Positions 43 through 53,319 of a stretch of DNA of 64,000 bases are shown here, piece by piece. How positions within the stretch are numbered: the stretch's first letter is position 1; every line of letters begins with the position of its first letter. The notes under the pieces were generated by a model. That model searched no databases. It worked only from the letters and a program-made list of their open reading frames with translations, and was not told where the DNA came from. The stretch covers positions 1-64,000 of the IMG/VR virus record IMGVR_UViG_3300030108_002876; one strand, 5' to 3'. The position numbers and the translations under genes were made by a program. This stretch comes from a virus.

Positions 43-1758
43 ATGAACGTACAGGAAACAGAGATCAATGGATTTGCGATTGACAAGTTCAATCAATATG
101 GCCTAGAAGTTGGCAAGACACAGGGTGTATGCCCTTGGTCTTCCAAGTGTAGGAAACCTGAAAATCAAAAGAAGAAATGTTCTTCTTATGATTGGGAACG
201 TGGTCTCGGCACCTGTCATAATTGCAACACTAGTTTTCAACTACATACTTACAAGCGCAAAGGTAACAGCGAAAAGGTTTATGTTAGACCTGGAGTTGAC
301 ACCATAATGCAACGTAGTACTAAAGTTGAAGACTGGTTTGCATCACGAGGCATATCTGCTCGTACCCTAGCTGACTTAAAAGTTAGCGAAGGTATGGAGT
401 GGATGCCTCAGACAGGTAAGTCCGAAAATACTATCCGCTTTAATTATTATATGGGCGATCAACTAATCAACATTAAGTATAGAGATGGTCGTAAAAACTT
501 TAAGCTTTATAAAGGGGCTGAAAAGATCTTTTACAATATAAACTCTATAGTTGGTTACGACGCTTGTATAATAGTTGAAGGCGAGATGGACGTGCTTGCA
601 ATGCACGAGGCGGGAGTTAAAAACGTTATATCAGTACCTAACGGTGCTACGTTAAACTCAAACAATCTCGATTACTTAGATAATTGCATCGACTATTTTG
701 AAGACAAGACTGAGGTTATCTTAGCTCTTGATACTGATGAACCAGGCCAAGCTCTTAAACAAGAGTTTATACGTAGGCTAGGAGCTGAAGTATGCTACTT
801 AGTTGACTTCGATGATTGTAAAGACGCCAACGAGTATTTATTAAAACACGGAGTAGATAAGCTACGCGACGTTGTTACTAGCTGTAAACAAGTACCGCTA
901 GAAAACGTATCAACATTATACGATATAGAAGATGAACTTAAAGACTTTGTACAAAACGGTTTTAAACCAGGTTTCCAAGTCGGACTTCCTAACTTTGATA
1001 AGATATTCAGTACTTATACTGGTCAGTTTATCACTGTCACTGGCATCCCGTCTTCTGGTAAGTCTGACTTCGTTGATCAAATGGTGGTTGGCTACAATAA
1101 CAACTATCAATGGAAGACTGCGTACGCGTCGCCTGAAAACCAACCGACGTATCTACATGCTCATAAGCTAATGCGTAAACACTGGCAAGACATGCCAACG
1201 CCAGGTGATATAGGTAGCCAACAATGGAAGAAGATAGCTGACCATGTTAATGACAACTACTTCTTTATTGATATGGACAAGTATACACTTGAGTCTGTAT
1301 TACGTAAAGGCGCTGAGCTTGTAAAGCGTAAAGGTATTAAATGTTTAGTTATCGATCCGTTTAATAAGGTTAGAGATACAAATGCACACTCTGATGATGT
1401 AAACCGTTATACAATGGATTACTTACAGAAGATCGAAATATTTGCTAAGAAATATGACGTGCTAGTGTTTATTGTAGCTCACCCAACTAAAATGTATAAA
1501 GGCCAAGATGGAAAAATTGAAGAACCTACTATGTATAATATCAAAGGCGGTGGTGAGTGGTATGACGCTTCTTATCACGGCTTATTGGTCCACAGGGACT
1601 ACGAAGCTAAAACGGTTAAAGCGAAAGTACTCAAGGTTAAATTCCAAAATCTAGGTGAGAACGGAGCTGAAGCTCATTTCACGTGGGAACCTAGATCTGG
1701 TAGTTTTGTACCTATGATGGCAGACGTTGCTGAACAAGAAGCTATGCCATGGGAATAA
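43..1758 (+). CDS. DNA primase-helicase (T7 gp4-like)
   Basis: Replicative bifunctional enzyme: synthesises RNA primers and unwinds the fork. The N-terminus carries a Cys-rich zinc-binding module (C30, C36, C46, C58, C61). A TOPRIM domain follows, with EGEMD at about 178-182 and DTDEPG at about 230. The C-terminal RecA/DnaB-type helicase has Walker A GIPSSGKS at about 334-341 and Walker B LVIDP near 434. Order and length (571 aa) match phage T7 gp4. It follows the SSB tail by one base and overlaps the next ORF by 10 bases, so it belongs to the plus-strand replication operon. Confidence 0.95.
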   Translation: MNVQETEINGFAIDKFNQYGLEVGKTQGVCPWSSKCRKPENQKKKCSSYDWERGLGTCHNCNTSFQLHTYKRKGNSEKVYVRPGVDTIMQRSTKVEDWFASRGISARTLADLKVSEGMEWMPQTGKSENTIRFNYYMGDQLINIKYRDGRKNFKLYKGAEKIFYNINSIVGYDACIIVEGEMDVLAMHEAGVKNVISVPNGATLNSNNLDYLDNCIDYFEDKTEVILALDTDEPGQALKQEFIRRLGAEVCYLVDFDDCKDANEYLLKHGVDKLRDVVTSCKQVPLENVSTLYDIEDELKDFVQNGFKPGFQVGLPNFDKIFSTYTGQFITVTGIPSSGKSDFVDQMVVGYNNNYQWKTAYASPENQPTYLHAHKLMRKHWQDMPTPGDIGSQQWKKIADHVNDNYFFIDMDKYTLESVLRKGAELVKRKGIKCLVIDPFNKVRDTNAHSDDVNRYTMDYLQKIEIFAKKYDVLVFIVAHPTKMYKGQDGKIEEPTMYNIKGGGEWYDASYHGLLVHRDYEAKTVKAKVLKVKFQNLGENGAEAHFTWEPRSGSFVPMMADVAEQEAMPWE

Positions 1759-2024
1759 ACGATAAAAAGAAAAATAAAAAAGTTTTAGGTAGAGCGCCTG
1801 AAGCTATACCTTATACTGATGATAACATGAAGCATATTGCTTGGTGTATGAACAATAGTATAGTCGTTGGTTTTTCTCCGATATGGGCTTCAGAAGATGA
1901 TTGGACTATTGATATAAAAATCAACAACAAATCAAGCGTTGATCCTAACACGTACACAGGAGAAGAAGTTATGGCTAAAGTTTATGAATACTATAAATAC
2001 TACTACGATAAATATGAAAAATAG
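1749..2024 (+). CDS. Small conserved-looking protein of unknown function
   Basis: A 91-residue protein between primase-helicase and the TS-family enzyme, overlapping both by about 10 bases, as is typical for a real gene in this compact operon. The N-terminus is Lys-rich (DKKKNKKV). The middle reads SIVVGFSPIWASEDDW and the end is Tyr/Lys-rich (YYKYYYDKYEK). The VVGF-type segment recalls the short protein at 4175-4324 (IIVGFRSYE), so the two may be distantly related. No family recognised; a role in nucleotide metabolism is only suggested by position. Confidence 0.7.
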   Translation: MGINDKKKNKKVLGRAPEAIPYTDDNMKHIAWCMNNSIVVGFSPIWASEDDWTIDIKINNKSSVDPNTYTGEEVMAKVYEYYKYYYDKYEK

Positions 2025-2658
2025 ATTTTATAATGCAGACTCTGCTTTCACTTATTTTTTAAATGAGATCAGATGTAATGGTATAGAGTTTGGTGATACT
2101 AAAGCTTTATTCAATATAGGTTTTACTATGGAACAACCACGTGATATGTTTATATTAAACAAAGAACGTGAGTGGAACAGAGAGTATGCTGAAGCTGAAT
2201 GGCAATGGTATTTATCAGGTGATCGTAATATAAACAAGCTAGGTGACTTATATGGTAAGGTGCCGCCGATATGGACGCGTATGGCTGACAAAGATGGTAA
2301 TGTTAATTCTAACTATGGCTGGCAGTGGAATCGTAATAATCAACTTACAAAAGTTATAGATAAATTATCTAACCCAAATACTAGACAAGCAGCTATATCG
2401 ATATACGATGGCAAAGAAATAGATATGTATGACACCGATACACCGTGTACTTACGCTGTGCAGTTTACGATAATGCCTAAAACTAATAAGCTTAACATGG
2501 CTGTAGTTATGCGATCAAACGATTTATGGTTTGGCTTCTGCAACGATCAGTATTGTTTTGCTAACTTGCAAATGCTTGTAGCATACGAGCTAGGTATTGA
2601 TGTCGGTGAGTATTATCATTATGCACACAACTTACACTTATATAATAACAAGCTATGA
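2014..2658 (+). CDS. Thymidylate synthase-family enzyme, probable dCMP hydroxymethylase
   Basis: I start at ATG 2014 (MKNRFYNAD), which overlaps the previous stop, rather than the longer ORF from 1939. Thymidylate-synthase family features in order: NYGWQW, the phosphate-binding segment NTRQAAISIYD, the nucleophile in TPCTY (C145), RSND at 167-170, and the closing HLHLYNN. The position equal to E. coli TS Asn177, counted from the RS of the RSxD motif, is Asp178. In T4 dCMP hydroxymethylase the equivalent residue is Asp179 and it sets preference for cytosine over uracil. I therefore favour dCMP hydroxymethylase; thymidylate synthase remains possible. MazG genes follow directly. Confidence 0.75.
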   Translation: MKNRFYNADSAFTYFLNEIRCNGIEFGDTKALFNIGFTMEQPRDMFILNKEREWNREYAEAEWQWYLSGDRNINKLGDLYGKVPPIWTRMADKDGNVNSNYGWQWNRNNQLTKVIDKLSNPNTRQAAISIYDGKEIDMYDTDTPCTYAVQFTIMPKTNKLNMAVVMRSNDLWFGFCNDQYCFANLQMLVAYELGIDVGEYYHYAHNLHLYNNKL

Positions 2659-3464
2659 CATATTGCATATACCATATACCAGGTAAAAAAATCGGTGTAA
2701 CAAATAACCTGGAAGAACGAGTTACACGACAACAAGGTTATACAGAAGATGAATATGAAATACTAGATATGTCAGACGACATTTGCTACATATCTCACAG
2801 AGAGATAGAGCTGCAAAAAGAATATGGCTATAAAGTAGATCGTAAACTGTATAAAGATTTAAACCCTATAAAACAAGAATTAAATTCTATGAATATAAAC
2901 ATAACAGAACAAACAACTACGTTTCCATGCCCAGTAAATAAGCTTAAAGGCAGACTTATGGACGAGATAGGTATGTGCTGGAAAACAGATCACGGTAGAT
3001 GCTGTATCGACGCTGACTCTATTAAATGGATTATGGAAAACGTAAAGACATCTATGTATAACAACGATAGATGCTACGTATATAATAAGGCGTTTGCTAG
3101 GTACTTTGATAACAACGATTGCTGTAAGACAAATACAGGCGCGTTAAACATGAGTGGTCGTAGAGCGCCAGATCGTTTTGATCTAATCAGAACATGGGCA
3201 AATGAACGAGGCTTGTATGATAAAGGCGATACTAAAACTCAATACTTAAAGCTTATGGAAGAAGCTGGCGAGCTTGGTAGAGCTATACTAAAGAACGACG
3301 AGCCTGAGTTTATTGACGCTATCGGTGATATGGTTGTAGTACTAACTAATCTAGCTAGACTAGGTGGCGTATCAATTGAAACTTGTATTGATTCAGCGTA
3401 TGACGTTATTAGTAAGCGTACAGGTAAAATGGTTAACGGTACATTTGTAAAAGATACACTATGA
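2655..3464 (+). CDS. GIY-YIG-like domain fused to MazG-like NTP pyrophosphohydrolase
   Basis: The start overlaps the TS-family stop (ATGA). Residues 1-75 look like a GIY-YIG nuclease fold: CIYHIPGKKIGVTNNLEERV has the shape of the GIY...YIG...N-x-x-x-R core. A Cys-rich middle (CPVNKLKG, CWKTDHGRCC, NNDCCKT) has no assignment. Residues about 175-260 hold an all-alpha MazG-type domain with metal-binding acids in KLMEEAGELGRAI and EFIDAIGDMVVVL (ExxE...ExxD). MazG enzymes hydrolyse (d)NTP to (d)NMP and pyrophosphate. The nuclease half may be inactive because I cannot place its catalytic Glu with certainty. Confidence 0.75.
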   Translation: MTYCIYHIPGKKIGVTNNLEERVTRQQGYTEDEYEILDMSDDICYISHREIELQKEYGYKVDRKLYKDLNPIKQELNSMNINITEQTTTFPCPVNKLKGRLMDEIGMCWKTDHGRCCIDADSIKWIMENVKTSMYNNDRCYVYNKAFARYFDNNDCCKTNTGALNMSGRRAPDRFDLIRTWANERGLYDKGDTKTQYLKLMEEAGELGRAILKNDEPEFIDAIGDMVVVLTNLARLGGVSIETCIDSAYDVISKRTGKMVNGTFVKDTL

Positions 3465-3742
3465 GCGATAGAGAAATAATGAATGCTAAGTCATCTACTA
3501 AAAAAGTAATGATGAAGTTTCGCGATCCAGTAGTACAACGCGTTTGTGAAAAGTTTACGCAACGATCTGACGAAGGCTATGCTAAGTACGGTCGTACGTT
3601 AAGCGATGAAATGCTAGGCGGACATAAACATCTTGATGGTTATCTCAACGATATACAAGAAGAGCTTATGGATGCAATACTGTATATACAAACAGCTCGT
3701 GAGTTAATAGACCATATCATTGGGCCGCAAGACGACGCATAA
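3461..3742 (+). CDS. Small MazG-like nucleotide pyrophosphohydrolase
   Basis: 93 residues. The RSDEGYAKYGRTL segment followed by GYLNDIQEELMDAILYIQ is the pattern of small phage all-alpha NTP pyrophosphatases related to MazG/dUTPase-2, with acidic metal ligands in QEELMDA. It overlaps the upstream fusion protein by 4 bases and the next ORF by 23. With the preceding gene it gives two MazG-type enzymes in a row beside a TS-family gene. That suits nucleotide-pool remodelling, for example dCTP removal as done by the superfamily member T4 gp56. Confidence 0.65.
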   Translation: MSDREIMNAKSSTKKVMMKFRDPVVQRVCEKFTQRSDEGYAKYGRTLSDEMLGGHKHLDGYLNDIQEELMDAILYIQTARELIDHIIGPQDDA

Positions 3743-4178
3743 AACCAAGAGCAGGAAACGAGGACCAGTTAAGTCAAAAAAGGTTACCTATGATGGGATA
3801 ACCTTTGCCTCGGGTCTTGAGCGTTATATGTATCAAGCACTAAAGAAAGCTAAGATCAAAGCCGAGTACGAGCCGGAGACATTTGTTCTTCAAGAAGGAT
3901 TTATGTGCGACATACAATGTTACGAGCGTCAAAGCAACGGTAAAGGCGACATGGTTAATCGCGGAGAAAAGAAAATACTACCTATCAAGTACACTCCTGA
4001 TTTTATCGGTAATGGTTTTATAATAGAAACAAAAGGCAGGGCAAACGAAAGTTTTCCTATGCGTTGGAAAATGTTTAAGAAATACATTAACAAACATAAT
4101 ATGCCTGTGACTTTATATAAACCCCAAAATCAAAAGGAATGTGATAAAGTTATAGAACTAATAAAAAGCAAACAATGA
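3720..4178 (+). CDS. Phage endonuclease, PD-(D/E)xK fold (DUF1064/T7 endonuclease I-like)
   Basis: 152 residues, apparently starting at TTG 3720 because no in-frame ATG precedes the conserved core. A basic N-terminus (GRKTTHKTKSRKR) is followed by ASGLERYMYQALKKA, YEPETFVLQ, then YTPDFIGNGFIIETKG. The E...PD...ExK spacing is that of the PD-(D/E)xK nucleases, in the arrangement seen in phage DUF1064/Holliday-junction-type endonucleases. It probably resolves branched DNA or degrades host DNA. Overlaps both neighbours. Confidence 0.75.
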   Translation: MGRKTTHKTKSRKRGPVKSKKVTYDGITFASGLERYMYQALKKAKIKAEYEPETFVLQEGFMCDIQCYERQSNGKGDMVNRGEKKILPIKYTPDFIGNGFIIETKGRANESFPMRWKMFKKYINKHNMPVTLYKPQNQKECDKVIELIKSKQ

Positions 4179-4324
4179 GTTGGGAATTAAGCGTTGGGTT
4201 TTACCCAGGAATAATTGTAGGATTTAGATCTTACGAACAAGAAACATGTAACAATCATGTGTTGTATTTACCTTTCGTAGATATATGTTTAACAATTTTA
4301 AAACAAGAGTATGAGTCAGATTAG
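4175..4324 (+). CDS. 49-residue protein preceding the ribonucleotide reductase
   Basis: A short ORF, ATG at 4175 overlapping the previous stop and TAG at 4322-4324 overlapping the reductase start, so it fills what would otherwise be a 130-base gap in a gap-free operon. The product begins MSWELSVGFYPGIIVG and contains HVLYLPFVDI. I recall similar short proteins next to ribonucleotide reductases in marine phages, but cannot check that here. Function unknown. Confidence 0.65.
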   Translation: MSWELSVGFYPGIIVGFRSYEQETCNNHVLYLPFVDICLTILKQEYESD

Positions 4325-6176
4325 CAGAGATATTTTATCAGATATTACAGTGCATATGAAGTATGCTAAGTATATACCTGAGCTTAACAGAAGAGAAACA
4401 TGGGAAGAGCTAGTTACACGTAACTTAGAGATGCACGTTAAGAAATATCCTGAGCTAACAGATCAAATCAACGAAGCTTATAAATATGTATATGATAAAA
4501 AAGTTTTACCGTCAATGCGTTCGCTACAGTTTAGTGGCAAGCCTATTGAAATATCTCCGAACAGGTTGTATAACTGTAGCTACTTACCTATTGACCACAT
4601 TGATAGCTTTAGTGAGACTATGTTCTTACTTCTTTCAGGCTGTGGGGTGGGTTATTCAGTGCAGCAGCACCACGTTGGAAGATTACCACACATCATTAAA
4701 CCGTTTGAAAAGCGACACAGGCGTTTTGTAATTGGTGATAGTATTGAAGGTTGGGCTGATGCGGTTAAAGTACTTGTTGAGTCGTACCTTGGTGGTCGCA
4801 GATGTTCTAAAGTAAAGTTTGATTACTCAGACATCAGGCCTAAAGGTGCAAGGCTAGTGACGTCAGGAGGCAAAGCTCCTGGCCCACAGCCACTCAAAGA
4901 GTGTTTAGTTAAAGTTCAAGGTATACTAGATAATAAAGATGATGGAACAAAGCTTACAAGTCTTGAAGTACACGATATCGTCTGTCATATTGCTGATGCT
5001 GTCTTGGCTGGTGGCATACGACGTGCAGCACTTATATCGTTATTTAGTGCTACAGATGAAGAAATGATATCATGTAAGTCAGGCAACTGGTGGGAACTTA
5101 ATCCGCAGCGTGGTAGAGCTAATAACTCTGCTGTGTTAATGAGACATAAAGTTAAGAAGAAGTTCTTTATGGATCTGTGGAAAAGAGTTGAAGCATCAGG
5201 AGCTGGAGAACCTGGCATATATCTAAACAATGATAAGGACTGGGGAACAAACCCGTGTTGTGAGATTGCTCTTCGTCCTTATCAGTTCTGTAACCTATGT
5301 GAGGTTAACGTATCAGATATAGTTGATCAAGATGATTTAAATGCTAGAGTTAAAGTTGCTGCCTTTATAGGTACGCTGCAAGCAGGTTATACAGACTTTC
5401 ACTACCTACGTGAGGTGTGGAAAGATACAACTGAGAAAGATGCATTAATAGGTGTATCAATGACAGGCATTGGCTCTAACAAAGTTATGAATCTTGATAT
5501 GAAAAAAGCTGCTGATATTGTTAAGCGTGAGAATACTAGAGTTGCTAAGCTTATAGGTATTAATAAAGCAGCGCGTACAACTTGTGTTAAGCCAGCAGGT
5601 ACTACATCACTAGTACTAGGCACATCATCTGGTATACACGCTTGGCATAACAAGCACTACGTACGTAGACTACGAGTTGGTAAGAACGAAGCTATTTATT
5701 CTTACCTAGTTAAGAACCACCCTGAGTTGATCGAAGATGAATACTTCAGACCTCATGATACAGCTGTAATCAGTGTACCGCAAGCGGCGCCTGATGGTTG
5801 TATTGTAAGAACTGAGTCTGCATTTGATTTACTTGAGAGAGTAAAGAAAGTATCAACTGACTGGGTATCGCCTGGTCATAGGACTGGTTCAAACACTCAC
5901 AATGTTTCTGCTACTATTAGTTTAAAAGCTAACGAGTGGGACGAGGCTGGTGAGTGGATGTGGAAAAACAGAGAATACTATAACGGTCTATCTGTTTTAC
6001 CATACGACGGTGGTACATATACTCAAGCTCCATTTGAAGACATTACTAAAACTAAATTTAATGAAATGGTTAAGTCACTAGATACTGTTGACTTATCAAA
6101 TGTAATGGAGACCGAGGATAACACAGATCTTTCTGGTGAGCTAGCTTGCTCAGGCGGGTCGTGTGAGGTTACATAA
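4311..6176 (+). CDS. nrdJ: Adenosylcobalamin-dependent ribonucleotide reductase (class II)
   Basis: 621 residues. It makes deoxyribonucleotides for phage replication. Landmarks: N-terminal SMRSLQFSG, the LLSGCGVGYSV segment with one active-site Cys, the NPCCEIAL loop at about 314-321 with the radical Cys and Glu, TTCVKPAGTTSL, and a C-terminal redox pair in ACSGGSCEVT (C613, C618). Monomeric length, the NCSYLPID region and lack of a separate radical subunit point to the B12-dependent monomeric type, common in marine phages. The host must supply cobalamin. Last gene of the plus arm, followed by a strong terminator. Confidence 0.9.
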   Translation: MSQISRDILSDITVHMKYAKYIPELNRRETWEELVTRNLEMHVKKYPELTDQINEAYKYVYDKKVLPSMRSLQFSGKPIEISPNRLYNCSYLPIDHIDSFSETMFLLLSGCGVGYSVQQHHVGRLPHIIKPFEKRHRRFVIGDSIEGWADAVKVLVESYLGGRRCSKVKFDYSDIRPKGARLVTSGGKAPGPQPLKECLVKVQGILDNKDDGTKLTSLEVHDIVCHIADAVLAGGIRRAALISLFSATDEEMISCKSGNWWELNPQRGRANNSAVLMRHKVKKKFFMDLWKRVEASGAGEPGIYLNNDKDWGTNPCCEIALRPYQFCNLCEVNVSDIVDQDDLNARVKVAAFIGTLQAGYTDFHYLREVWKDTTEKDALIGVSMTGIGSNKVMNLDMKKAADIVKRENTRVAKLIGINKAARTTCVKPAGTTSLVLGTSSGIHAWHNKHYVRRLRVGKNEAIYSYLVKNHPELIEDEYFRPHDTAVISVPQAAPDGCIVRTESAFDLLERVKKVSTDWVSPGHRTGSNTHNVSATISLKANEWDEAGEWMWKNREYYNGLSVLPYDGGTYTQAPFEDITKTKFNEMVKSLDTVDLSNVMETEDNTDLSGELACSGGSCEVT

Positions 6177-10117: not shown

Positions 10118-10750
10118 TTATATTGTTGCTATTGTTACTGTTGCACCATATATTAATGTATTAGTAGTTCCTGGAGCTACTTTTATTACTAAATCTTGCG
10201 TTGCACTAGACGGTATATCTGTTATATCAATGTTAGCGTTAAAATCGCCAGATGTTGAGCTTACGTTATTGTCAGCTCCAGTTTGATAGTTAAACGACTT
10301 AACTGTAACAGCGCTAGATGTACTTGCGCTCGCGTGAACTTGTACGTGAGTTGCTTTGTATCCACTAGGTAATTTTTGAAACGCGTAACCTTCTAAAAGA
10401 GAGTTAAAAAACACTATACCTAAAGTATTTGATGTATCATCTTCAATATATCCCCAAGCTCTAGTACTATCATCATTAGGCACAAACTGATCTGGCATTA
10501 TTTTAATAACAGTAGTGCTAAATGGATCTGCTGTTACTCCACCAGCAGCTGCATTAATACGATCATCAATAGCAGCTGAAGTCATAATGCTAGTGTTGTT
10601 ATCAGCAAACGATTCAGCAGATGTTTGCACAGCATTTATAGTTGCGCCATCAATTCTAAGATCACCATCTAAACGTGCAGTGCCACTTACTTGCAAGCTA
10701 CGAAACCTAGCTGCAAGGTTAAATACACGTTGACCAATATACTTAATCAT
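10118..10750 (-). CDS. Fibre-like structural protein
   Basis: 210 residues. The N-terminal part (LRSLQVSGTARLDGDLRIDG, SIMTSAAIDDRI) resembles the repeated stem of phage tail fibres and appendages. The remainder is Ser/Thr-rich and beta-predicted (SASTSSAVTVKSF, ATVTIATI). Starts 4 bases inside the T9SS gene stop. Function as a fibre or head-appendage protein is inference. Confidence 0.65.
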   Translation of the reverse strand: MIKYIGQRVFNLAARFRSLQVSGTARLDGDLRIDGATINAVQTSAESFADNNTSIMTSAAIDDRINAAAGGVTADPFSTTVIKIMPDQFVPNDDSTRAWGYIEDDTSNTLGIVFFNSLLEGYAFQKLPSGYKATHVQVHASASTSSAVTVKSFNYQTGADNNVSSTSGDFNANIDITDIPSSATQDLVIKVAPGTTNTLIYGATVTIATI

Positions 10751-13050
10751 TTAACAACTCTCTTGACAACAACGCGACCGTTCCAAACAATACGTAACAT
10801 ATACATTCCTGGAGGCCATAGGGACGCGTCTATCGCGTTCGTATTTGTTTTAGATAATAGGATACGTCCGTTTGAATCGATCACGTCTATGTCAACGTTT
10901 TGATTTATGTTTAACACATTACTAACTGGGTTTGGATAGACAACTAAGTCATCACCAGCTAGTATGGATTCTATACCTGTTACACTGCAGTAGTCATATG
11001 TTGCTTGACAAGTATTGTCCCACTCTTCACTACAGCAATATGGATCTGCTTCAATTACCCACGCATAACACAAGTCGTTTAACCAGTACGGTTCGCCAGG
11101 TCCACCAATACAACCAGCATCATATAAACAGTTATCAGTAGATTCATTTGCAAGTTCATTATAGTTGTACGCTAGTGGGTCCATACAGTCGACCACCACT
11201 TCTTCGCACGAGCCATTATCAGTATTAGCAGCTGGATCATAATTAAAAGCGCTACTGTCAGTACAGCCATAAATGTAAGGGATACAGCTACCATCTTCAG
11301 CGTTAGCTTCTGGATCATAATTAAACATTGTTGCGTCCGTGCAACCGTAGACAAAAGGTATACAGCTATCATCGTCAGTATTAGCGGCCGAGTTGTAATT
11401 GAAAGCAAGTGGGTTCATGCAGCCTAACACTACAGGTATACAACCCTCGTTATCAACGTTTGCTTCTGGGTTATAGTTAAATGCTTCTTCGTCCATGCAA
11501 CCAAATACTGCTAGCGTCTGACAGTCACCGTTATCGTAATCAGCTTCGTAGCCTTGCGTATAATATTCTAAGTAACCCGCTTGAGTACAACCAGCTTGAT
11601 AGTAGCAACTACCATCTTCTGTATTTACTTCAGCGTTATAGTTTTGTGCTGCTTCATCTGTACAACCATATGAGTATGGCTCACAGTAGTTACCACACCT
11701 TAAATATGGAGTATAAGTTTTATTAGGTTCTACAGGATCAAGCCAAGGATTAGTGCCTTTATCAAATACAATATCTCCGTTAGGTTTAATAAGTTTAAAT
11801 CCTACTTGTGATATATCTGTTACAGTTCCGCCTTGACCAAAGAAGCCGCCAAACTCTACAGGATAAAATGTAAACTCAACATGTGTTAGTGAGCTTACTG
11901 TAATATTATAAAACGCATCTTGATCTGTACATGTAAATGCGCCAATAGGTTCGCCATCTTGTACTACACCTAAATATGAGTTATCCCAACCATCACCACC
12001 ACCATCAAACAACATAAGCGTGTACTCACACTCAGGCACTAAGTCCATGGTATTAGCTAGTGAGTCATAGTTAAAAGCGTTTTCGTTTATACAACCTGGT
12101 ATTGCAGGCGTTATACACTGGCTTTGATCGTTATTTTCTGCAAGAGAATTAAACTCTAAATAATTAGGGTCTAAGCAACCAAACGGTGGATTTTCTGGTG
12201 GACAAGGATTAAGTAAGTTAGGCACGCTATTAGCTTCATAACCAAAGTCTGGATTTTGCCCTTCAAACGGTAGTATACTGTATATAACGTTACCACACTC
12301 TGTGTAAACTAATACATCACCATCAGCTGATCCACCTGTAGTAGAGCCAGCAAGACCATCACCATACGAGTCGTATATATTAAACGTAAACTCTACGCCT
12401 AACGGTATACAATACTCTGTAGTAACGTTAAGCCCAGCAGTTTCATAAAAACCTTGTTCTTCGCTAGCTAAAACAATAGGCACGCTGTCCGTAGTTAATA
12501 TTTCCCAGCTAGTTTCCCACTGTGAAAACGTATCACCTGTTATACTTACATAAACGTTTTGAGTTAGCGTATCACCGCACTCAGATACATTACCGTACAA
12601 ACAAGACTCTTCAAACTCAGACTCAATACCAGCAAATGGATTATAGTTAGACGCTAGCGGATCCATACAACCAAGACCACAATTAGGATTATCTAATACA
12701 AGAGTATCCATAATACCGCCAGGTGATTCTACTATAAAGTAATATTCGCTACTAGATACAGGCGTAGATTGTGCATAGCCATAAAAGTAATTACCAAACC
12801 AAGGGCCATAAGGTATAAACTGTAGATTATCTAAATCATCGCCTCTATAAAATCCTACAGGCTGACAACCTGGTGGCGCTTCCCAGTTTACGCTTAGCTC
12901 ACCTTGATTAGGCGACCATGGAAAACAAGATATCTCACCTTGTAAATTTGTTATACCACAAGGTGGTGGCGGTATAGTATCTACTTGAGAAAATACACAA
13001 CTCGCTAGTAGCCAAAATATTACTACAAATACGTACGCTAACTTCTTCAT
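10747..13050 (-). CDS. Secreted repeat protein with T9SS C-terminal sorting domain
   Basis: 767 residues. Signal peptide at the start (KKLAYVFVVIFWLLASCVFSQ; a lipobox-like LASC is also present, cleavage at S-Q is more usual). The body contains about ten copies of a GC-(T/M)-D-x-x-A-x-NY-(N/D)-P-x-A-N-x-(D/E)-DGSC unit. The last 75 residues are a type A T9SS sorting domain: VVYPNPVSNVLNI, VIDSNGRIL, LWPPGMYMLRI, VVVKRVVK. In Bacteroidota such domains send proteins through the outer membrane to the surface. It sits in a cassette of exported proteins, inside the phage late operon. Confidence 0.85.
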   Translation of the reverse strand: MKKLAYVFVVIFWLLASCVFSQVDTIPPPPCGITNLQGEISCFPWSPNQGELSVNWEAPPGCQPVGFYRGDDLDNLQFIPYGPWFGNYFYGYAQSTPVSSSEYYFIVESPGGIMDTLVLDNPNCGLGCMDPLASNYNPFAGIESEFEESCLYGNVSECGDTLTQNVYVSITGDTFSQWETSWEILTTDSVPIVLASEEQGFYETAGLNVTTEYCIPLGVEFTFNIYDSYGDGLAGSTTGGSADGDVLVYTECGNVIYSILPFEGQNPDFGYEANSVPNLLNPCPPENPPFGCLDPNYLEFNSLAENNDQSQCITPAIPGCINENAFNYDSLANTMDLVPECEYTLMLFDGGGDGWDNSYLGVVQDGEPIGAFTCTDQDAFYNITVSSLTHVEFTFYPVEFGGFFGQGGTVTDISQVGFKLIKPNGDIVFDKGTNPWLDPVEPNKTYTPYLRCGNYCEPYSYGCTDEAAQNYNAEVNTEDGSCYYQAGCTQAGYLEYYTQGYEADYDNGDCQTLAVFGCMDEEAFNYNPEANVDNEGCIPVVLGCMNPLAFNYNSAANTDDDSCIPFVYGCTDATMFNYDPEANAEDGSCIPYIYGCTDSSAFNYDPAANTDNGSCEEVVVDCMDPLAYNYNELANESTDNCLYDAGCIGGPGEPYWLNDLCYAWVIEADPYCCSEEWDNTCQATYDYCSVTGIESILAGDDLVVYPNPVSNVLNINQNVDIDVIDSNGRILLSKTNTNAIDASLWPPGMYMLRIVWNGRVVVKRVVK

Positions 13051-13410
13051 TTAAAAATCACTATATATTATTTCATCAACTACGTCTTGCACTTCTCTAC
13101 GCGTAGCTTCTAGTTGCATCATAATGTTTGCTTGAAATCTTTTAACTTCTTTTCCGTTAAAAACTATGATTGTAGGTACTACTACAATTTCAAAATCATT
13201 TTGATAAGAATCATCATCATCAATATTAAGATTCATTACCTCACAATCAGTTAATTCATCAAGATAATCAACGCTATTGTTTGCGTTCCAGCTAGCGTTA
13301 AACTGTACGACGCAGATATCACTGTCGCATAGATTTTGCCCAAGCGCTGTGCCTGCTACAAACACAAACAACATTACCAGAAGATATGTTATCACTGATC
13401 CAAAGTTCAT
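13051..13410 (-). CDS. Exported thioredoxin-fold protein without the CxxC motif
   Basis: Start placed at 13410 (MNFGSVITYL), which gives an ATGA overlap with the upstream 50-residue gene; an ATG 12 bases earlier is possible. Residues 1-25 are a signal peptide or anchor (LLVMLFVFVAGTALGQ). The remainder follows the thioredoxin fold: CVVQFNASWNANNS at the usual WCGPC position, MNLNIDDDD, and the cis-Pro loop VVVPTIIVFNGKEV. The redox pair is replaced by Asn-x-x-Ser, so it should not act as a disulfide reductase; a chaperone or binding role in the periplasm is possible. Next to the T9SS protein. Confidence 0.7.
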   Translation of the reverse strand: MNFGSVITYLLVMLFVFVAGTALGQNLCDSDICVVQFNASWNANNSVDYLDELTDCEVMNLNIDDDDSYQNDFEIVVVPTIIVFNGKEVKRFQANIMMQLEATRREVQDVVDEIIYSDF

Positions 13411-13559
13411 TGTCTCTTCCATGCTTTCTTATTAATTATAATACTACTAATAGAGTATATAGCTATAAAAGCTATAGCGTATATAATACTTGGGTGCCCA
13501 TGATAATCACACGTATGACTATCACACATACCAAAGAAGTGTTGTGTAAATTCTTTCAT
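13407..13559 (-). CDS. 50-residue single-span membrane protein
   Basis: ATG at 13559, TGA at 13407-13409, overlapping the thioredoxin-like start. The product begins MKEFTQHFFGMCDSHTCDYH, with a Cys/His-rich head, then one hydrophobic span (SIIYAIAFIAIYSISSIII) and a basic end (NKKAWKRQ). It fills the only larger gap in the export cassette. Function unknown; a small envelope protein or holin accessory is possible. Confidence 0.6.
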   Translation of the reverse strand: MKEFTQHFFGMCDSHTCDYHGHPSIIYAIAFIAIYSISSIIINKKAWKRQ

Positions 13560-13570
13560 TACTTATTTAT

Positions 13571-13780
13571 TTATGATGCTTCATCATGTGGATCCATCAT
13601 GTACTTTTCAAGAGCTTCTCTAGCTTGATCTAAATCTTGTTTAGTTTTCTCGTTCTTATCTTTGTTATACTGTTTTTCGAAAGCCTCTACATCAGATTGT
13701 AATCTATCAAGTTCTTTTGAAGGGTGAGACTTGAGCGCAGACACATCTTGCATAGGAAAACCTTTCATCTTAAACGCCAT
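13571..13780 (-). CDS. FKMKG-tagged coiled-coil protein
   Basis: 69 residues. Begins MAFKMKGFPMQDV, an FKMKG tag, followed by a charged helical coiled coil (LDRLQSDVEAFEKQYNKDK, LDQAREALEKYM) and a HDEAS tail. One of the shortest members of the tagged set, so it shows the tag plus one simple helix. Function unknown. Confidence 0.75.
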   Translation of the reverse strand: MAFKMKGFPMQDVSALKSHPSKELDRLQSDVEAFEKQYNKDKNEKTKQDLDQAREALEKYMMDPHDEAS

Positions 13781-51518: not shown

Positions 51519-51776
51519 CACTACATCTCTTGCTCGGATTACATGGTACATTGTGTCTGCCCAGGTTATACCATGCCCAGCATGTTTGTCGTAATATATA
51601 ATATCGTTATCTTTTAGGCCTTCAACTAGATTACCTGTAGAGATAATCGTAGCTTTAATATACCTATTGCTTTCGTCTAGTTCTTCAGTAAGAAGTAAGC
51701 CACCAACTTTCTTAGGACCCACTTTCTCTACGTCTACTACTATGTAATCATTGATTGCTTTCATCTGCTCTAGCAT
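51507..51776 (-). CDS. groS: Co-chaperonin GroES
   Basis: 89 residues (or 85 from a second Met). Cpn10 pattern: MKAINDYIVVDVEKV, mobile-loop region VGPKKVGGLLLTEELDES with GGLLLT in the place of the GroEL-binding IVL, then IKATIISTGN, LKDNDIIYYDKHAG, IRARDVVLVE. Caps the GroEL ring. It starts 29 bases inside the end of groEL and lies downstream of it, opposite to the cellular groES-groEL order. Confidence 0.85.
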   Translation of the reverse strand: MLEQMKAINDYIVVDVEKVGPKKVGGLLLTEELDESNRYIKATIISTGNLVEGLKDNDIIYYDKHAGHGITWADTMYHVIRARDVVLVE

Positions 51777-53319
51777 TTGATATTACACAATCAGCTGATA
51801 TAATAGTTGACACTACTGATACAGCGTTCTTTAATGCAGACTTAGTAACAAGTACTGGATCTACAATACCTGCTTCAATCATATCTACACACTCACCAGT
51901 TATTACATCGATGCCACAGTACTCTTGATCGTCGCATACCACACCTGTAATACCTGCGTTATCTAGTATTGTATCGAAAGGAGCTTTAATAGCTTCTAGC
52001 AATACTTCCTCACCCGCGTTAGCGGGAGAAATTTTTTGAGCAGCCCACCATAGTGCTGAACCGCCGCCAGGTACTATGCCTTCTTTTAGTGCAGCTTTAG
52101 TTGCGTATATAGCATCTTCAACCCTGTCTTTCTTTTCTTTGAGTTCTACTTTAGAACCTGCACCCACTTTGATAATACCTACAGAGCCTGATAGCATAGC
52201 TAAACGTTCTTCAAGCTTCTTTTTAAAAAACCCGTTTTTTTCTTCAGCTACTTTCTTAGACACTTGCTCAATACGTTCGTTAATTTCCTCTGTCATTTCT
52301 TCAAGAGTTATTACTGTATTAGTATCGCTAGTTACCGCGTACTCAGCTTCACCAAGATGTTCTACACTTATGAGATCTAAGTCATCACCTAGCTCTTCAT
52401 TAATAACAGTAGCGCCTGTCATAATAGCTAAATCTTCTGTAGCATCTTGCTTAGTAGGTCCAAAGCCAGGCAAGTCAACGATGTTAACTTTAATATTACC
52501 TTTTACCTTGTTCATCATAAGCGCTGACTTGACGCCTTGCGCTACTGGAGCTATAATAAGTAAAGCCCTACCTTTTTTAATGACATGCTCTAATACGCTT
52601 TGTATCTTACGTACATTAGGTATCTCACTTGACACAATAAGTACATATGGATTATCTAGCTCTGCTAGATGTTTATCAGTGTTAGTGACGAAGTGCGGCG
52701 ACGTAAGCCCGCAGTCAAACTGCACTCCGTCAACTAACTCAACATGCGTTTCATCGGTGTCACCTTCCTCCATAAGTACGACACCATTCTTACCTACTTT
52801 TTGGTAAGCTTCTGCAATAATGCTTCCAAGGGCTTGATCATTATTACAACTAATCGCGCTAACAGCGCTAAGCATGCTCCCTTCAACTTCAATAGCCCTT
52901 CCTTCCAGATGTTGCACAACTTTGTCCAGGCCTGAGCTAATACCTGCTTTGATTTCTCTAATAGATTCATCAGCATATTTTTCTTTGTTTACTTCTTTTA
53001 AAAGTGCTTCAGCAAGGACAGTAGCTGTAGTAGTACCGTCACCTGCTTCTTTCACTGTATTGTTAGCTGCCTCCTTAATTAAGGTTGCACCTATGTTTTC
53101 GACCGGATCATATAAGACTACGCTTTGGGCAACGGTTACTCCGTCTTTTGTTATGACCGGCTTGCCGCGAGCATCTTCGTATATAACGCATTTACCCGAT
53201 GCGCCTAATGTACTCTTTACGGCTTGCGCTAGTTTAGTTACACCAGCAATTACTTTATCTTTAGCGATTTGACCAAAGTCTAAACGTTTGATCAACTCAC
53301 TAGGTAAGTTGTATTCCAT
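51748..53319 (-). CDS. groL: Chaperonin GroEL (60 kDa)
   Basis: 523 residues, complete group I chaperonin: KSTLGASGKCVIYED, KDGVTVAQSV, ATP-site AGDGTTTATVLAEAL, apical domain with LAELDNPYVLIVSSE and KGRALLIIAPVA, and EGIVPGGGSALWWA with the catalytic region. It is about 25 residues shorter than E. coli GroEL and lacks the Gly-Gly-Met tail, ending ISNARADESNQ. It probably folds capsid or the giant tail proteins. Sequence is clearly diverged at ordinarily constant places, so old phage acquisition rather than recent host transfer. Confidence 0.95.
   Translation of the reverse strand: MEYNLPSELIKRLDFGQIAKDKVIAGVTKLAQAVKSTLGASGKCVIYEDARGKPVITKDGVTVAQSVVLYDPVENIGATLIKEAANNTVKEAGDGTTTATVLAEALLKEVNKEKYADESIREIKAGISSGLDKVVQHLEGRAIEVEGSMLSAVSAISCNNDQALGSIIAEAYQKVGKNGVVLMEEGDTDETHVELVDGVQFDCGLTSPHFVTNTDKHLAELDNPYVLIVSSEIPNVRKIQSVLEHVIKKGRALLIIAPVAQGVKSALMMNKVKGNIKVNIVDLPGFGPTKQDATEDLAIMTGATVINEELGDDLDLISVEHLGEAEYAVTSDTNTVITLEEMTEEINERIEQVSKKVAEEKNGFFKKKLEERLAMLSGSVGIIKVGAGSKVELKEKKDRVEDAIYATKAALKEGIVPGGGSALWWAAQKISPANAGEEVLLEAIKAPFDTILDNAGITGVVCDDQEYCGIDVITGECVDMIEAGIVDPVLVTKSALKNAVSVVSTIISADCVISNARADESNQ

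Follow-up and report, generated by a model that had tools for sequence, protein, structure and literature searches.

A 214-residue protein of the thymidylate synthase family is encoded near the start of the window (the whole stretch of 64,000 bases that was analysed, corresponding to bases 1-64000 of a virus record that is 65,509 bases long). Judged by its residues, the protein very probably makes 5-hydroxymethyl-dCMP, the building block with which T4 disguises its DNA. Sequence comparison and modelling together point to a dCMP hydroxymethylase with the mode of action of T4 gp42, whose product would pass into the phage DNA by the pathway proposed below, and we consider this the best explanation and a likely one. 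The type of enzyme is already known; here it occurs in marine phages for which neither a DNA polymerase nor a matching kinase was found in the 25 records searched. We infer that the phage DNA is likely to carry a modified base.

A T4-like active site in a thymidylate synthase family protein

The open reading frame contains a single stop codon, at its end. Its product scores 95.3 bits with PF00303 (cut-off 24.3; E 4.6e-27) and also matches PHROG 160, 'thymidylate synthase' (2e-40). The initial annotation had placed an RSND motif at residues 167-170 and, counting from there, an Asp at the base-specificity position; both were located as claimed in the translation, Asp178 being encoded by GAT (2545-2547). 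A 26-protein alignment, with the T-even dCMP hydroxymethylase RB14 gp42 as the T4-type reference, equates position 178 with Asp179 of T4-type gp42 and with Asn177 of E. coli ThyA, and phmmer against the PDB aligns 1b49 in the same way.

Published work ties this position to the base. According to the T4 ternary-complex paper (PMC6400193), the D179N substitution lowers kcat on dCMP by up to about 3600-fold. Conversely, thymidylate synthase becomes a dCMP methylase when its Asn is changed to Asp, as two studies of 1992 cited in PMC8670742 reported (Liu and Santi; Hardy and Nalivaika). The MetaGPA study (eLife 2021; PMC8670742, excerpts) found Asp at ThyA position 177 and the residue at position 147 to be the two sites most tied to modified-cytosine contigs. 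At the second of these sites, directly after the catalytic Cys, the window protein has the T4-like Thr146. None of the eight panel sequences with Asn at 178 (six thymidylate synthases, Vi01 and Ab1-TPeters) has Thr there, the residue being His, Val, Ala or Asn. These residues give good support to dCMP as the substrate.

Because Asp178 specifies cytosine and not the reaction, the other elements of the T4 signature, as published, were examined. The signature of hydroxymethylation given in the T4 paper consists of an Asp three residues before the catalytic Cys, plus a Ser-x-Tyr motif (PMC6400193), and the window protein has both, as Asp142 ahead of Cys145 and as Ser99-x-Tyr101. Additionally, the C-terminal tail that seals the folate site is missing, only 4 residues following Tyr210 compared with 55 in ThyA, and the C-terminus is shorter than that of the T4 enzyme as well. 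The six thymidylate synthases of the panel, all with Asn at 178, invariably have Leu at 142 (6/6), never Ser at 99 (0/6), and a tail of at least 55 residues after the Tyr210 equivalent. Thus where ThyA has Asn177, Leu143 and a C-terminal tail, the window protein has Asp178, Asp142 and no tail. Dihydrofolate reductase (DHFR) gave no match in the window record or in 24 relatives, the same search succeeding in both positive controls (2/2). The proposal of 'hydroxymethyl- or methyl-dCMP' made in the initial annotation therefore stands as to dCMP, while of its two products the T4 signature and the missing tail favour hydroxymethylation over methylation.

Compared with T4 gp42 (1b49, 6a9a) the identity is about 35% over 160 residues, and the shared residues (T4 numbering) are Glu60, Ser94-x-Tyr96, Asp145, Cys148, Thr149, Ser169, Asp179, His216 and Tyr218, together with the absence of a C-terminal folate tail. 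The differences lie in T4 Arg124, a phosphate ligand that is replaced by Gln or His in the window clade, in T4 Arg177, a folate-tail ligand that is replaced by Cys, and in the surroundings of the gene, since no neighbouring glucosyltransferase was seen and no phage kinase or polymerase was found in the clade.

Conservation of the signature

Searching IMG/VR gave 478 matching stretches, of which the best 80 were fetched and counted; with the window they form a set of 81 sequences, 73 of them distinct. Asp178 is kept in 81/81 of this set and is encoded by both GAT and GAC. In the same alignment of the window with the best 80 of 478 relatives, Glu62, Ser99, Tyr101, Asp142, Cys145, Thr146, Ser168, His208 and Tyr210 are likewise each present in all 81. 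The retrieval peptide covering Asp178 is absent from 66 of the 81 sequences, which were therefore retrieved via other parts of the protein. Pairwise dN/dS between the window gene and the 13 nearest relatives listed ranges from 0.04 to 0.21. The Asp178 observation is confirmed and is not due to chance.

A frameshift or C-terminal truncation of the window protein was considered and rejected: 80 of 80 relatives end 4-14 residues past Tyr210, so that the short C-terminus, being common to the whole clade (4-14 residues in 81 sequences), is not a truncation artefact. Plasmid records gave weaker matches only, the best having 29% identity among the matches listed.

Predicted structure and phylogeny

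An AF2 model built from 32 sequences reached a pLDDT of 91.8 and a pTM of 0.89. VIA-align of this model gave 9iqc at Z 24.4 (22% identity), MilA at Z 24.2 (27% identity), 9iqu tied with them and ThyA at about 20, while T4 dCMP hydroxymethylase scored Z 21.4-21.6, with 1b49 aligned over 196 residues at 2.2 Å. MilA is also the best PDB profile match of the window protein (E 5e-25), and the top Foldseek matches in BFVD were mostly family members. Since the Z scores of 9iqc, MilA and 9iqu fall within 1 of each other, residues and not structure were used to judge function. Structural alignment, proposed beforehand as a check, thus bore out the thymidylate synthase fold and did not discriminate function.

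In a 27-protein tree, 7 sequences of the thymidylate synthase branch (including Stromboli) are split from 20 on the hydroxymethylase side with support of 100/100. The window clade falls on the hydroxymethylase side, together with Bacteroides phage BF486P2 and a sequence from a Clostridia MAG (92/94); its placement relative to T4 gp42 was not settled by this tree.

Alternative activities

The structural matches bring in a different reaction on the same substrate. The title of 9iqc describes a riboflavin-dependent monooxygenase with dCMP and FAD, AfhB of phage HY126, and an enzyme of this kind is what Mosigvirus (RB69-like) phages use to make 5-hydroxy-dCMP (excerpts of PMC13390438, citing Lee et al. 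2025 on 5-hydroxycytosine biosynthesis). A flavin-dependent dCMP 5-hydroxylase of this type (9iqc, 9iqu) shares with the window protein the fold, the Cys-Thr pair, the specificity Asp and the short C-terminus; 9iqc is the best structural match by Z, albeit tied with MilA, and RB69 ORF048c, which agrees with 9iqc almost letter for letter over 238 residues, keeps the Cys, the Thr and the Asp. However, the RB69-type enzyme lacks Glu62, Trp87, Asp170 and other letters kept by the window: at the sites of Glu62, Trp87, Ser99, Asp142, Asn169, Asp170 and Tyr210 (T4 Glu60, Trp82, Ser94, Asp145, Asn170, Asp171 and Tyr218), ORF048c carries Phe, Ala, Thr, Glu, Gln, Asn and Phe, respectively. This seven-site pattern of ORF048c and 9iqc presumably defines 5-hydroxylase activity, and as the window agrees with T4 at every one of these sites (7/7) we rate a 5-hydroxylase as very unlikely. 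Moreover, of the 26 non-self BLAST matches to the window protein only one is weaker than ORF048c (25.8%, E 1e-12), and in the tree ORF048c pairs with Rhizobium phage RHph_I46 (100/99).

The conversion of thymidylate synthase by Asn-to-Asp exchange (the 1992 studies above) would also fit a dCMP methylase of the kind reported from phage XP12, with 5-methyl-dCMP as its product, and Microbacterium phage Stromboli provides an example of Asp178 without the hydroxymethylase signature. Against this, Asp142 and Ser99 of the window are hydroxymethylase letters at sites where the thymidylate synthases have Leu and never Ser, and the window has neither the tail nor a DHFR, whereas Stromboli keeps a 62-residue tail and an adjoining DHFR; tail and pocket thus differ from the thymidylate synthase-like ones expected of an XP12-type enzyme, and we see scant likelihood of methylation. 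The same small probability attaches to an enzyme acting on dUMP, either a thymidylate synthase or a dUMP hydroxymethylase, that tolerates Asp178. The family name points that way, PF00303 being mostly thymidylate synthase, and Asp142 is also seen in Vi01 and similar relatives whose residue 178 is Asn, but Thr after the Cys is found in none of the eight Asn-178 sequences, and the cost of D179N in T4 (PMC6400193, excerpts) likewise counts against a dUMP enzyme. The least probable activity is that of a CMP hydroxymethylase like MilA (5jnh), a ribonucleotide enzyme that does not act on DNA precursors. MilA shares with the window the fold, the Cys, the specificity Asp and the Asp three residues before the Cys, and it is both a tied best structural match and the best profile match. 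Its preference for CMP rests on Ala176 and Lys133 (PMC5175136, excerpts); in their place the window has Ser168 and Arg124, a pair found in 81/81 sequences (the window and the best 80 of 478 relatives) that favours deoxyribose substrates. A T4-like dCMP hydroxymethylase thus remains the preferred assignment, and the residue comparison suggests a simple way to separate the hydroxymethylase, methylase and 5-hydroxylase members of the family.

Gene neighbourhood

The gene lies in a replication operon (Table 1) with a common gene order of primase-helicase, 91-residue protein, hydroxymethylase, MazG-type protein, 93-residue protein, DUF1064 protein and reductase. Neighbours were counted over 85 loci (L002-L086), several of which are too short to reach every gene: a MazG-type gene follows the hydroxymethylase in 83/85, the 93-residue protein was matched in 77/85, the DUF1064 protein in 76/85 and the primase-helicase in 74/85. 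The two loci without a MazG-type gene are those of BF486P2 and the Clostridia MAG. MazG-like genes also lie near the primase in related phages that have no PF00303 gene, so that this neighbour is not specific evidence for the pathway. In the 93-residue protein E67-E68 and D71 are invariant in 15 aligned sequences, and its EELMDA motif suggests that it may be a second all-alpha NTP pyrophosphohydrolase.

Table 1. Predicted features in and around the putative hydroxymethylase gene (positions in the window).
Feature	Position	Strand	Basis
TOPRIM primase / DnaB-type helicase	43..1758	+	PHROG 239, 1.2e-82
91-aa protein overlapping the start of the hydroxymethylase gene	1749..2024	+	no Pfam or PHROG match
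dCMP hydroxymethylase (predicted), thymidylate synthase family, 214 aa	2014..2658	+	PF00303; complete T4 dCMP hydroxymethylase signature; AF2 model
Ser99-Asn100-Tyr101, counterpart of T4 Ser94-x-Tyr96, water positioning	2308..2316	+	alignment; role from PMC6400193
Asp142-Thr-Pro-Cys145-Thr146: water-activating Asp, nucleophile Cys, T4-like Thr	2437..2451	+	alignment
Arg167-Ser168-Asn169-Asp170 to Asp178 (base-specificity Asp; T4 Asp179)	2512..2547	+	alignment
MazG-type nucleotide pyrophosphohydrolase, C-terminal domain; candidate for the dCTP to dCMP step	2655..3464	+	PF03819 2e-6 and PF01503 6.6e-5, both above cut-off
93-aa conserved neighbour	3461..3742	+	PHROG 11184 (unknown function), 3.2e-6
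DUF1064 / Holliday junction resolvase-like nuclease	3738..4178	+	PF06356 4.7e-10; PHROG 190 2.3e-14
Class II (adenosylcobalamin) ribonucleoside-triphosphate reductase	4311..6176	+	PHROG 367 2.2e-134; TIGR02505 4.3e-81, below its cut-off

The arrangement can be compared with that of the MetaGPA carbamoyltransferase-associated Asp177 enzymes, which share the diagnostic ThyA-177 residue and a PRA-PH (PF01503) neighbour, a family that co-occurs with Asp177 enzymes (PMC8670742, excerpts). In contrast to those systems, the carbamoyltransferase C-terminal domain PF16861 was found in none of the 25 records (the window record and 24 relatives).

The reductase that follows the hydroxymethylase alternates between loci, being class II in 26/84 and class I in others (NrdA 41/84, NrdB 45/84), with never both kinds in one locus (L002-L086 without L082). 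Some 5-8 kb downstream, seven relatives (L043, L065, L066, L071, L072, L073 and L079) carry a JmjC/cupin cassette with a weakly GT29-like protein.

Proposed pathway and fate of the product

In the proposed mechanism Cys145 would attack C6 of dCMP, Asp178 would recognise the cytosine ring and protonate N3, and methylene-tetrahydrofolate would give its carbon to C5. Because no C-terminal tail would seal water out, a water molecule held by Asp142, Ser99 and Tyr101, and not a hydride, would add to the exocyclic methylene, yielding 5-hydroxymethyl-dCMP and tetrahydrofolate. Upstream of this reaction the phage reductase would provide dCTP, from which the adjacent MazG-type enzyme would make dCMP for the hydroxymethylase. 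Phosphorylation of 5-hydroxymethyl-dCMP up to the triphosphate would then fall to host kinases, and its incorporation in place of some or all cytosine to the host replicase; the modified DNA would probably be protected against restriction.

Searches for the remaining parts of such a pathway covered the same 25 records, some of which may be fragments. Neither PF21448 (DNMK) nor PF02223 (thymidylate kinase) was found in them, PF21448 being detected in both T4-like controls, and a loose P-loop pattern scan of the window's open reading frames gave no convincing kinase candidate besides the helicase. T4 needs its own kinase for hmdCMP. DNA polymerases of families A, B and C were also missing from the 25 records (no PF00476, no PF07733 and no PF00136 above cut-off); a polymerase B match in the relative G023, at 15.5 bits under the cut-off and inside a 2345-residue frame, was dismissed as chance. 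GT2 glycosyltransferases (PF00535) were found in none of the records; the beta-glucosyltransferases annotated in ATCCB and VPE25 escaped this search as well, so that it does not exclude other glycosyltransferase families.

The lack of a recognised kinase or polymerase in these records counts against a complete T4-like pathway, and it lends some weight to a reading in which 5-hydroxymethyl-dCMP is produced without any substantial modification of the DNA, and would drain the dCTP pool or find some other use. This reading agrees with the preferred one on the enzyme itself. Strong conservation across the clade within a replication operon speaks against it, as does the fact that the host could supply the kinase and polymerase steps, and we regard unmodified DNA as rather unlikely, though a good deal less so than any of the alternative activities. 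Taking a T4-like enzyme feeding phage DNA as the preferred explanation, a large marine phage clade, related through its terminase to flavobacterial podoviruses, may have 5-hydroxymethylcytosine DNA made by a minimal pathway of hydroxymethylase and pyrophosphatase, relying on host kinase and replicase and lacking any recognised polymerase, dNMP kinase, GT2 glycosyltransferase or carbamoyltransferase of its own. We put this forward tentatively, as a possibility somewhat short of an even chance. Such a pathway would be a host-polymerase-dependent replacement of cytosine, possibly by bare hmC, unlike that of T4.

If the DNA does carry 5-hydroxymethylcytosine, base replacement would be widespread in an extensive group of marine phages (478 IMG/VR stretches), most of them uncultured. 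It would then matter for which defences, restriction and modification-dependent ones alike, are effective in their hosts, and would raise the question of how hmdCMP is phosphorylated and copied where no phage kinase or polymerase is recognised.

The phage and its probable host

The record is probably nearly complete, its ends joining if strain variation is allowed for, since its first 436 bases match its last 436 at 90.9% identity. A 71.5-kb relative (G012) has two occurrences of this gene with equal scores, at a distance of 67,545 bases. Two other loci, L015 and L024, lie on one contig of 76,964 bases, in which the hydroxymethylase region is present in two versions that differ and are separated by about 66 kb; this contig seems likely to be a chimeric or over-long assembly.

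Among 87 records, the terminase is closest to those of Flavobacterium, Cellulophaga, Tenacibaculum and Maribacter phages and of a Manatee Spring podovirus. The protein encoded at 10747-13050 (-) resembles a Bacteroidota secreted protein with a sorting-type C-terminus. Taken together, terminase kinship and this protein make it likely that the host is a marine member of the Bacteroidota. No report of the enzyme in Bacteroides or Flavobacteria phages was found among open-licence PMC papers.

A GroEL chaperonin is encoded at 51748-53319 (-) (PHROG 5725, 1.2e-134) and is annotated too in two related phages, elemoA and MW202828. Of the named phages, the latter (MW202828.1) has the closest terminase (64%); it has no PF00303 gene, and a FAD-dependent thymidylate synthase is annotated in it (13059-13733).

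Related enzymes in other phages

The sister branch in the tree (92/94) includes the annotated 'deoxycytidylate 5-hydroxymethyltransferase' of BF486P2 (WAX06796.1), which has 45.5% identity to the window protein over 213 residues and shares the signature and the CND motif. Upstream of its gene, all within about 6 kb, are genes for a carbamoyltransferase (PF16861, 1.3e-34), a P-loop protein of the AAA_28 type and another PF00303 protein, which is divergent; none of the three was found in the window clade. A pairing of carbamoyltransferase and hydroxymethylase was used by MetaGPA to find 5-carbamoyloxymethyl-dC (PMC8670742, excerpts), and the resemblance of the BF486P2 pairing to it supports, by analogy, the function assigned to the family. 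This region of the isolated Bacteroides fragilis phage (OP172667.1, 6641-12669), which also encodes a dUTPase and whose divergent PF00303 protein is without the Glu62 and Trp87 residues, is a candidate 5-carbamoyloxymethylcytosine locus.

Two proteins annotated as 'thymidylate synthase' depart from that name in their residues. The Stromboli protein (L099, 989-1903) combines Asp178 with Ile at 142, Met after the Cys, the 62-residue tail and a DHFR gene next door, and on these grounds may be a dCMP methylase. The RHph_I46 protein (L101, 2992-3768), grouped with RB69 as described above, has most of the RB69 5-hydroxylase pattern and is a candidate 5-hydroxy-dCMP synthase; upstream of its gene a dNMP kinase and an NTP pyrophosphohydrolase are annotated.
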